From: Deltaproteobacteria bacterium
Lineage (GTDB): Bacteria > Desulfobacterota > WTBG01 > JAGOGO01
Length of the DNA: 41,380 nt
Reading direction: 5' to 3'
Assembly: GCA_016935335.1 (NCBI GenBank)
Contig: JAFGRE010000149.1
Coordinates: 1-41,380 of the forward strand
The stretch's first letter is position 1; the number at the start of each line of letters is the position of its first letter. This document shows, in pieces, positions 18,594 to 32,913 of the stretch. The notes beneath the pieces are model-generated. The model was given only the letters and a program-made list of their open reading frames with translations, searched no databases and had not been told where the DNA came from. Position numbers and translations under genes: made by a program.

Positions 18594-18617
18594 GTTTTTT
18601 TGGATGTTTTTTTGGAT
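18594..18617. repeat. Perfect 12-bp tandem duplication next to the riboswitch promoter
   Basis: GTTTTTTTGGAT occurs twice without interruption (18594-18605 and 18606-18617) and ends at the first base of the -35 box. The preceding CATCC can pair with GGATG of the repeat, so the segment could also act as a weak hairpin/T-tract terminator insulating the promoter. Confidence 0.6.
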
Positions 18618-18645
18618 TGACGAGGCAGTGTTTTTGTTTTATCCT
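18617..18645 (+). promoter_or_regulatory. Sigma70 promoter of the riboswitch transcript
   Basis: TTGACG (18617-18622), a 17-base spacer and TATCCT (18640-18645). The predicted start near 18652 falls just where the aptamer begins, which supports both calls. Confidence 0.65.
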
Positions 18646-18651
18646 TTTCCA

Positions 18652-18740
18652 AAAGGAAAAAGGCAAATTCGTCGAAAGGCGGAGACGCAAAGCCACGGGT
18701 CTAAAGCCGAAGGGCCATGATTGCCGGGTTGCCGTCCATA
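18652..18740 (+). ncRNA. GEMM-I cyclic-dinucleotide (c-di-GMP-I type) riboswitch aptamer
   Basis: The conserved core GACGCAAAGCCACGGGTCT is at 18684-18702, followed by the second arm ending GCCGGGTTGCC at 18723-18733. The P2 stem TTCGTC/GGCGGA closes on a GAAA tetraloop, as in GEMM aptamers. The 5' strand AAAGGCAAA precedes P2 as expected. Hand alignment to the Vibrio Vc2 aptamer puts a G at the position called G20, which favours c-di-GMP over the 3',3'-cGAMP-sensing variant, but this depends on an ungapped alignment. It lies between its own promoter and a terminator, upstream of a FliL-like gene. Confidence 0.9.
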
Positions 18741-18752
18741 TTCGTCCACATG

Positions 18753-18790
18753 CGCCTTGAGGTGAGACTGCCTGAAGGCGTTTTTTTTTT
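18753..18790 (+). terminator. Intrinsic terminator forming the riboswitch expression platform
   Basis: CGCCTTGAGG and CCTGAAGGCG form a 10-bp stem with one G-G mismatch around an 8-base loop, followed by ten T residues. It starts about 12 bases after the aptamer and ends 44 bases before the FliL-like ATG, so the riboswitch most likely acts by transcription attenuation. Whether ligand turns the gene on or off cannot be decided by eye. Confidence 0.85.
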
Positions 18791-18834
18791 CAAAATCATC
18801 AACGGATTAAGCCACAGCCGGTAGGCAAAACGTT

Positions 18835-19245
18835 ATGAAAAAAGATTATGTTTCCGTCTGGTTGATCAGTTTTACAATTATTCTAATACTTCTCTGCCTC
18901 TCCCTTTCATTTTACTATCGGGATGACTTCAGGCTCTCCACTTTGTCGGTAAAAAAATTCCGTGGTCAGATACAATGCAGTGTCTATGCTAATGCCACTG
19001 AAAAAAGCTGCATGTCTCTATCGCTGTCGATACCTTGTAGCAGCAAGGAGCAGTATAATGACCTTAACAACAAATTGCCTCGGTTACGGCATGAATTGCT
19101 GTTATCTCTGAGTAGGCCTGAAGTTAACGAGATCATGAGGAAAGGAAAACTGGAGGAGGCGAAGAAGCATCTTATTCAAACCATTAATCAGGTTGCAAAG
19201 GAGCCAGTGGAAGATCTCTATTTCGATTCGTTCTCCTTGTTTTGA
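18835..19245 (+). CDS. Orphan FliL-domain-like membrane protein under riboswitch control
   Basis: A 136-residue protein with one N-terminal membrane segment (about residues 8-28) and an extracytoplasmic domain. The C-terminal half follows the FliL pattern: LPRLRHELLLSLSRPEVNEI, a GKLEEAKKHLIQTIN helix and the terminal VEDLYFDSFSLF strand. FliL proteins are stomatin-like and stabilise the flagellar stator. No flagellar gene lies nearby. C48, C59 and C68 in the periplasmic part are unusual and could form a disulfide. The ribosome binding site is weak. FliL identity is from fold-level pattern only and should be checked; another small membrane-anchored domain is possible. Confidence 0.75.
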   Translation: MKKDYVSVWLISFTIILILLCLSLSFYYRDDFRLSTLSVKKFRGQIQCSVYANATEKSCMSLSLSIPCSSKEQYNDLNNKLPRLRHELLLSLSRPEVNEIMRKGKLEEAKKHLIQTINQVAKEPVEDLYFDSFSLF

Positions 19246-30101: not shown

Positions 30102-30836
30102 ATGGTGGGCATGAACAGCGAACACCTGAAAGAGTTAGCCGAGATCGTGAATGACCTCTCCGGATTCCTCCAAAGTCGTTGTTGTATGGGAATGGAGAGC
30201 CTTTCGTTTGCGGAAATCGAAGAAGTCGGCGAAGAGCTTGACAGGTTGATTCAAAAAGTCTCTTTGCGGGATGTAGGCACTCCCGATTCTCTCGATCGCC
30301 TGAATCGTGAAGTCCAGGGGTGCTCACGATGTGATTTGGCTGTCTCGCGAAAGGCAATCGTTTTCGGCGAGGGCAGTCCCACTGCTTCCCTTGTGTTTGT
30401 GGGTGAGGCGCCTGGCAGAGACGAAGACTTAGCCGGGCGACCCTTTGTGGGGGAGGCGGGCCAGCTGTTGACCCGAATTATACACGCGATAAATCTCAGG
30501 CGCGAGGATGTCTACATAGCTAATGTCGTCAAGTGCCGGCCTCCGCATAACCGGGATCCGAAGTCTGATGAAATTCAGGCCTGTTTTCCCTTTCTACTCA
30601 GACAGCTCGATGTCATTCGGCCCCGGGTTATCTGCGCCCTGGGTAAATTCGCAGCCCAGACGTTGTTGGGTACCACGGAGAAGATTTCCAGCCTTCGGGG
30701 TACGATCCATGAAGCTTACAACTGCACGGTTGTGCCGACCTATCATCCTGCTTCCCTACTGCGGAATCCCCAGTGGAAACGGGAGGTCTGGCAGGACATG
30801 CAACGTGTTCAGAAGTTATTAGAGGATAATGCTTGA
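30102..30836 (+). CDS. udg: Family 4 uracil-DNA glycosylase, [4Fe-4S]
   Basis: A 244-residue DNA-repair enzyme removing uracil. Cluster ligands are visible as C74 and C77 (GCSRCDL), C145 (VVKCRPPHNR) and C161. The catalytic motif GEAPGRDED is at 101-109 and the later YHPASLLRNP is the family HPA-type motif. The N-terminal 70 residues before the core are helical and variable. Start could be 30102 or ATG 30111. The TGA overlaps the nfeD ATG (TGATG). Confidence 0.94.
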   Translation: MVGMNSEHLKELAEIVNDLSGFLQSRCCMGMESLSFAEIEEVGEELDRLIQKVSLRDVGTPDSLDRLNREVQGCSRCDLAVSRKAIVFGEGSPTASLVFVGEAPGRDEDLAGRPFVGEAGQLLTRIIHAINLRREDVYIANVVKCRPPHNRDPKSDEIQACFPFLLRQLDVIRPRVICALGKFAAQTLLGTTEKISSLRGTIHEAYNCTVVPTYHPASLLRNPQWKREVWQDMQRVQKLLEDNA

Positions 30837-32143
30837 TGAATAAGAAAATTTACAAAGGGACGATACTCTTTTTTCTCTGGTTCGTACTTTTGAGTCCGGC
30901 GGCTCTCTTCGCTTTGGATCGCACGGTAAACCTTGCCCAGATCGAAGGCGTCATCAATCCGGTTGCCGCGGAATACATTGAAACCTGTATCGATACGAGT
31001 GAGAAGGAGTCAGCAGAGTGCTTGATCATTCAGCTCGATACTCCCGGCGGGTTGGATACTTCCATGAGACAAATCGTTAAACGGATTCTCAACGCAGCGG
31101 TTCCCATCATCGTCTACGTCGGTCCTGCCGGAGCGCGGGCAGCTTCTGCCGGAGTAATGATTACCATGGCCGCCCATGTAGCGGCGATGGCGCCGGGGAC
31201 GAACATCGGAGCGGCCCATCCTGTTGCCTTGGGGGGAGGGAAGATGAGCCGGGAGATGGTGGACAAGGTTGAAAATGACGCCGTCGCTTACATCCAGAGC
31301 ATTGCCACGAAAAAAAATCGTAATGTCGAGTGGGCGGAAAAGGCGGTACGGGAGAGCGTTTCCATTAAAGCGACAGAGGCGCTGGAGTTACAGGTTATTG
31401 ACCTGGTCAGCCCCAACATCGATGATCTCTTGAAGCAGGTCGACGGGCGGGAAATACAAATAAACGACAGGTCAATAATCCTGGCAACGAAAGGGGCGGA
31501 AATTCGCAGACTGGACATGAACTTTCGGGACCGGATATTGGATACTCTAAGCAATCCCAATATTGCGTATATTTTGATGATGCTGGGACTCGCCGGCCTC
31601 TATTTTGAGCTGGCTCATCCGGGGGCGATATTTCCCGGTGTTATTGGGGCAATATGTCTCATTTTAGCCTTTTATTCTTTTCAAACCCTCTCGGTAAGCT
31701 ATGCTGGCATTCTTATGATACTCCTCGCTATTGTCCTTTTTCTTGCTGAAATTAAGGTAACGAGTTACGGACTCTTGAGTATCGGCGGGACGGTTGCCCT
31801 TATTTTGGGTTCCCTCATGCTTTTTGACTCTCCGGCTCCGTATCTACGGGTATCCTTAAAGGTGTTGATTACAACAGTGGTATTCACTGCCGGTTTTTTT
31901 ATTGCCGTTGCGACGTTGGCCTTTAAGGCGTTTCTGAGAAAACCGGCGTCGGGAGCGGAAGGACTGATCGGCATGGAGGGCGTGGCTGTCAGCCGGATTG
32001 ACCCCGCCGGAAAGGCATTTGTTCACGGAGAGTACTGGGACGCAATCAGTGAAGAGGTGATCGCAGAAGGAGAAGCGATCGAAGTGATAGGAATAAAAGG
32101 ATTGAAGGTTAAGGTCAAAAAGAATACCAACAAATCTTCATAG
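30836..32143 (+). CDS. nfeD: NfeD-family membrane-bound serine protease (ClpP-class)
   Basis: A protein of about 435 residues with a signal segment (about 8-27), a ClpP-like protease domain and four to five C-terminal membrane helices plus a final OB-fold (about 375-425). Catalytic residues are visible as S104 in ARAASAGVM and K144 in MVDKVEND, 40 apart as in the PH1510 protease (S97/K138). ATG 30836 overlaps the UDG stop. It forms the conserved nfeD-slipin pair with the next gene; such proteases cleave the hydrophobic C-terminus of their slipin in archaea. Confidence 0.94.
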
Positions 32144-32157
32144 GAGGGAGGTTTATT

Positions 32158-32913
32158 ATGCCGTTACCGATTCTTGTCTTAGTGGTCTTGATAGTGATGT
32201 TTTTGGCAAGCGCCATCCGGATCTTAAACGAATACGAGCGGGGTGTCATTTTTCGGTTGGGGCGACTCATCGGGTCCAAAGGACCAGGCTTGATCATCCT
32301 TATTCCCATGATCGATAAAATGCAAAAGGTGAGTCTAAGGTTGGTGACCCTGGATATTCCTCCTCAGGATGTCATCACCAGGGACAATGTGTCCGTCAAG
32401 GTCAATGCGGTTCTTTATTTTCGGGTAATGACGCCGAATCAGGCAATCGTGGAAGTGGAAAATTTTCTTTATGCGACGTCACAACTTGCGCAGACGACGC
32501 TGCGAAGTGTCTGCGGTCAGGCGGAATTGGATGAGCTTCTGGCAGAGCGGGAGAAAATCAATGCAAGATTACAGGAGATTCTTGACAAGCAGACTGATCC
32601 CTGGGGGATAAAGGTGTCGAATGTGGAGGTAAAACACATTGATTTGCCGGATGAGATGAAACGGGCTATGGCCCGTCAGGCGGAAGCCGAGCGGGAACGG
32701 CGGGCAAAAGTGATTCACGCTGCCGGTGAATTTGAGGCTGCCGCCAAACTCGCCGAAGCCGCCGACGTAATGGCGGTGAATCCTGTGACGTTGCAGCTTC
32801 GGTATCTTCAGACCCTTCGGGAGGTAGCATCGGAGAATAACTCAACAACCTTGTTCCCGATCCCTATAGATCTAATCAAACCTTTTTTGGAGAAGATGAA
32901 GGGGGACAAATAG
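32158..32913 (+). CDS. Slipin (stomatin/SPFH-domain membrane protein)
   Basis: A 251-residue stomatin-like protein. One N-terminal hydrophobic hairpin (about residues 3-21) is followed by [13 protein letters not shown] and the SPFH domain, then [18 protein letters not shown] and a coiled-coil C-terminus with [24 protein letters not shown] lies 9 bases upstream of the ATG. It is the partner of NfeD, 14 bp upstream. Such proteins form membrane-associated oligomers that organise local lipid domains. Confidence 0.95.

Follow-up and report, generated by a model that had tools for sequence, protein, structure and literature searches.

A c-di-GMP-I Riboswitch Precedes an Orphan fliL Paralogue in a Deltaproteobacterium with a Flagellum

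The Riboswitch, Its Terminator, and the Downstream Protein

The window considered here is the whole stretch of 41,380 nucleotides that was analyzed, from a draft assembly of a Deltaproteobacteria bacterium. On its plus strand, a sigma70-like promoter, a c-di-GMP-I (GEMM-I) riboswitch aptamer, an intrinsic terminator, and an open reading frame for a 136-residue protein follow one another. The promoter (TTGACG-17-TATCCT, 18617–18645), which a preliminary description of this DNA had already pointed out, is present with 9 of 12 matches and ends 6 nt 5′ of the aptamer. A promoter scan of the window found three sites of this kind where chance predicts 2.6, and the main argument in its favor is therefore that it lies immediately 5′ of the aptamer. 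The aptamer (18652–18736) was recovered by an Rfam covariance-model scan as a full-length match to RF01051 (model positions 1–87), scoring 83.8 bits where the gathering score is 35 (E = 3.2e-15), bearing out the earlier GEMM-I assignment well above threshold; it carries G at the position where cGAMP-type aptamers have A.

The terminator (18752–18790) comprises a stem at 18752–18781, in which seven plus four pairs flank a single G·G mismatch, followed by ten T residues; a terminator with ten T residues had also been described before. A 51-nt stretch folds at −18.1 kcal mol–1, and the stem is absent from the list produced by a simple terminator scan. It contains no aptamer base, and aptamer and terminator can coexist in one fold of −41.2 kcal mol–1. 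Within the aptamer, the bases AAGGCG (18676–18681; tetraloop and 3′ strand of the first hairpin) are the same six bases as in the 3′ arm of the terminator and are complementary to its 5′ arm, and they pair with 18753–18758 in the minimum free energy structures of transcripts ending at 18772–18778, making them a candidate antiterminator strand. The order of aptamer, separate terminator, and fliL-like reading frame supports the attenuator layout proposed previously, and control by c-di-GMP through termination is a well-founded prediction.

FliL is a flagellar stator-associated, stomatin-like protein that acts as a helper of the flagellar motor. The downstream reading frame (18835–19245) is assigned as an orphan second FliL of 136 residues on the basis of its PF03748 match, its predicted fold, and its clade. 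In a profile search, PF03748 scored 35.2 bits (E = 1.9e-8; curated cutoff 24.6), with residues 57–133 aligned to profile positions 20–100 of 103. Compared with the family, the protein lacks the first ~19 profile positions as well as the LSSKT...GK and FTEFVVQ motifs, while it shares with FliL a transmembrane anchor and a periplasmic domain. An AlphaFold2 model built from 29 alignment rows, including canonical FliLs, reached a pLDDT of 85.4 and predicts a short cytoplasmic N-terminus, a transmembrane helix at residues 6–28, and a periplasmic, stomatin-like FliL domain at residues 45–135 with a strand-strand-four helices-strand arrangement. Because the canonical rows could steer this model, a further model was computed with the six orphan sequences alone, yielding the same structural elements at a pLDDT of 79.9. 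For both models, the only PDB chains matched by Foldseek at E ≤ 0.001 were FliL chains (C. jejuni 9hmf and H. pylori 7sgn, at the top of the matches), with TM-scores on target of 0.69–0.77. PDB sequences searched with a profile made from just the five orphan rows contained no significant match, but the search by fold did yield one. Profile and predicted fold thus support identification of the protein as a FliL, and the membrane-anchored, FliL-like protein of the preliminary description is upheld by the structure prediction as well as by the PF03748 score.

A Second FliL Clade and Its Pairing with the Riboswitch

The assembly to which the window belongs (G000; 2.8 Mb, 246 contigs, 91.5% complete) contains 11 GGDEF matches and encodes flagellar proteins on two further contigs. 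Contig C135 carries FliF, FliG, FliI, FlgE, MotA, and MotB, with the motB frame extending to the contig end, and contig C29 carries FliM, FliP, and further export genes. The latter contig ends 82 bases 5′ of fliM, and these bases encode ELNGLLVEGTISNLYFVEFVIQ and a stop codon, the C-terminal 22 residues of a canonical FliL whose gene immediately precedes fliM. The canonical gene has therefore been cut by the assembly, such that a search of the genome reports the window gene only. Usually, although not by strict definition, fliL is located near motB and fliM within the flagellar locus; this is where the canonical copy lies, and the window gene is unlinked to it. Given the flagellar genes and the canonical remnant, the window gene is a second, orphan FliL, where "orphan" denotes an additional copy, unlinked to the first, in a cell that does have a flagellum, and not a FliL without one. 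Inspection by eye together with searches revealed no flagellar gene among the other reading frames of the window, in line with the earlier observation that none lies nearby. A non-flagellar FliL, considered for want of flagellar neighbors, was rejected in light of the flagellum and canonical fliL of the same genome. Elsewhere in the window (30833–32913), an NfeD protein adjoins an SPFH/Band 7 (stomatin family) protein, which is an ordinary pairing.

When 395 genomes of the phylum were queried with the window protein, clear relatives appeared in G353 (33% identity) and G389 (31%) and weaker ones in G261 and G218, so that the orphan FliL is found in 5 of the 395 sampled genomes; a sixth member (L125) comes from beyond these five, in the metagenome-assembled genome HGW-Deltaproteobacteria-15. 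No relatives were found in a first scan of contigs with the window protein alone as the query, no further strong member was found in the same 395 genomes with a profile of the first five orphans (next match E = 1.6e-7), and no orthologue was found in the sampled same-family genomes G001 and G002. Just one of the five relatives (that of G389) passes the PF03748 cutoff by itself, the other four falling below it. In a tree of the six orphans and 23 other FliLs, the six occupy one side of a branch with a support of 100/100, as a clade separated from canonical FliL by a long branch (2.23). Residues N118, P124, V125, and Y129 (window numbering) are common to all six, and the canonical FTEFVVQ end is missing from each of them. 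The genomes G353, G389, G261, and G218 each also possess a canonical FliL, at 86–97 bits.

Two other groups of unusual FliL proteins were encountered. The short orphan FliLs of G011 and G013 (L040, 1498–1938, and L041, 1339–1797) were considered as clade members and rejected, as they form a separate clade of their own on the tree and no riboswitch was found with them; they adjoin a tRNA and a radical-SAM plus hisS-like pair. Larger, divergent FliL-domain proteins of about 200–270 residues occur at L042–L046, at least three of them directly 3′ of a flagellar sigma-factor-like gene in genomes of the same class.

The pairing with a riboswitch recurs in G261 and G218, two genomes of one genus that share the phylum, and not the class, of G000. 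In these, RF01051 matches at 81.3 and 83.5 bits, respectively, about 60 nt 5′ of the orphan fliL, with a CCCGT...ACGGG-T6 terminator in between. The survey of genomes thus recovered the same order of aptamer, terminator, and orphan fliL, which places the pairing in two distant lineages, and with thousands of genes per genome, accidental linkage to the same gene clade in both would by rough reckoning be unlikely. No riboswitch was found 5′ of the orphan in G389 or HGW-Deltaproteobacteria-15, which are two of the three other members, and for the third, G353, the contig covers just 95 nt upstream of the gene. The titles and abstracts of the open-access literature, a coverage outside which most subscription papers lie, yielded no report of FliL together with a c-di-GMP riboswitch. 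The parts are known and their combination is new: a c-di-GMP riboswitch before a second-FliL clade in flagellated deltaproteobacteria. Aptamers of the c-di-GMP-I type number seven in G261, four in G218, and two in G000. The other aptamer of G000 (L003; contig C121, 1492–1569, minus strand, 59.1 bits) lies 94 nt 5′ of a 147-residue reading frame with a type IV pilin N-terminal methylation motif.

Direction of Switching

Both ON and OFF types are known among GEMM-I riboswitches for cyclic dinucleotides: in the OFF switch Cd1, located before flagellar genes in C. difficile, the terminator is formed without aptamer strands, while in the ON switch pilM it is built with them (PMC9262584). In the window, in G261, and in G218, terminator and aptamer do not overlap. 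From this parallel with Cd1, in which the terminator likewise lies outside the aptamer, we consider it probable that c-di-GMP lowers expression of the orphan fliL. The riboswitch would then control the gene by transcription attenuation: in the free RNA, the 5′ arm of the terminator would be held by aptamer sequence, and the ligand-bound aptamer would leave this arm free, such that high c-di-GMP would turn orphan fliL off. Overall complementarity between aptamer and terminator arm as strong as that observed arises in 2.8% of shuffled sequences in the case of the window, compared with 20% in G261 and 67% in G218. It thus exceeds chance modestly in the window and is not above shuffles in the latter two, which renders the antiterminator pairing suggestive only.

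The same riboswitch-fliL unit could also work with the opposite sign, with the second FliL being produced at high c-di-GMP and braking or remodeling the motor for surface life. Switches of both signs are known (PMC9262584), the N-terminal and transmembrane part of FliL is able to inhibit the motor (PMC10127578), and a PilZ gene lies beside one of the relatives. Nevertheless, an ON switch seems unlikely to us when aptamer and terminator are separate at all three loci and fit into one fold in the window, and when it is the pilM terminator, and not that of Cd1, that uses aptamer strands.

The predicted OFF switch resembles Cd1, which precedes the flgB operon of C. difficile, in its full-length RF01051 aptamer, in having the terminator strands outside the aptamer, and in a target linked to flagella. 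It differs in that the target of Cd1 is an early flagellar assembly operon, whereas that in the window is one FliL paralogue, and a single FliL paralogue as target points to motor tuning and not to assembly.

Role of the Second FliL and Identity of the Ligand

The known control of flagella by c-di-GMP proceeds via assembly operons, as with Cd1, or via protein brakes such as YcgR. If the present reading is true, a riboswitch that serves a single additional protein of the stator would add a third route, one that alters the composition of the motor. Among the relatives, the G353 orphan adjoins flgM where a flgH-flgI-flgN-flgK-flgL-fliW cluster ends, the G389 orphan has a PilZ protein close by and flgL and flgK at a distance of about 6–7 kb, and that of HGW-Deltaproteobacteria-15 is near cheR; no flagellar genes were found near the orphan in the window, G261, or G218. 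A precedent exists in V. fischeri, where the available text of the report describes FliL2 (VF_2446) as a second, monocistronic FliL paralogue outside the flagellar locus that is needed for full motility, its mutant swimming less well in soft agar (PMC3948606). It differs from the window gene in that the flagellar regulator FlrA activates fliL2, and that text makes no mention of a riboswitch (PMC3948606). Taken together, these neighbors and the V. fischeri precedent favor a flagellar role.

We regard as probable a one-gene unit in which the c-di-GMP-I riboswitch controls the second FliL by transcription attenuation. This paralogue, with its anchor in the inner membrane, would most likely act on the flagellar stator (MotA/MotB) in the manner of canonical FliL, and may join or alter the FliL ring around it, so that motor output would change with c-di-GMP independently of flagellum assembly. 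The occurrence of the riboswitch-fliL pair here and in a distant relative suggests such a motor-tuning function, in which an RNA switch would act directly on the motor and not on construction of the flagellum. More tentatively, and with some doubt on our part, the switch may set the ratio of the second to the canonical FliL in the stator ring, with torque or stator retention following c-di-GMP while assembly remains unchanged. Such a reading would make the role of FliL testable, as the response to load or the retention of stators could shift when a natural FliL variant is added or swapped.

Alternatively, the orphan may have left the flagellum for another envelope machine, such as type IV pili, secretion, or a stomatin-like ion channel, which would agree with the absence of flagellar genes around three of the loci, with the pilin-like reading frame behind the second riboswitch of G000, and with the length of the branch from canonical FliL. 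We deem this quite improbable, since three relatives have flagellar or chemotaxis neighbors, every checked sampled genome with an orphan has a canonical fliL, and none of the six loci read has a visible pilus or secretion gene as its neighbor. The suggestion in the preliminary description that the protein may serve another machine likewise finds no support in view of these neighbors and of the flagellum and canonical fliL of G000.

Assignment of the ligand turns on a single base. In an alignment, the window aptamer reads AAAAAGGCAAA, whereas A-type aptamers, which are expected to bind cGAMP and occur in same-class genomes at L012, L013, L019, L021, and L029, read AAAAGAGCAAA. The window aptamer thus has G in place of the A of cGAMP-type GEMM-Ib at the specificity position, which we take to be G20 from the alignment and Vc2 numbering, and we infer from this that its ligand is c-di-GMP. 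That it instead senses 3′,3′-cGAMP, as in Geobacter, is very improbable: users of GEMM-Ib do include Deltaproteobacteria (PMC8835794), and the A-type aptamers above come from the same class, but cGAMP binding goes with the G20A change (PMC6274999), and the window aptamer retains G. Least credible of all is a decaying fliL duplicate with an accidentally linked riboswitch, which the rarity of the gene in the phylum and the lack of an orthologue in the two same-family genomes might suggest, but against which stand an intact reading frame, a confidently predicted FliL fold, clade residues conserved across families, and the reappearance of the riboswitch-terminator-gene order in G261 and G218.
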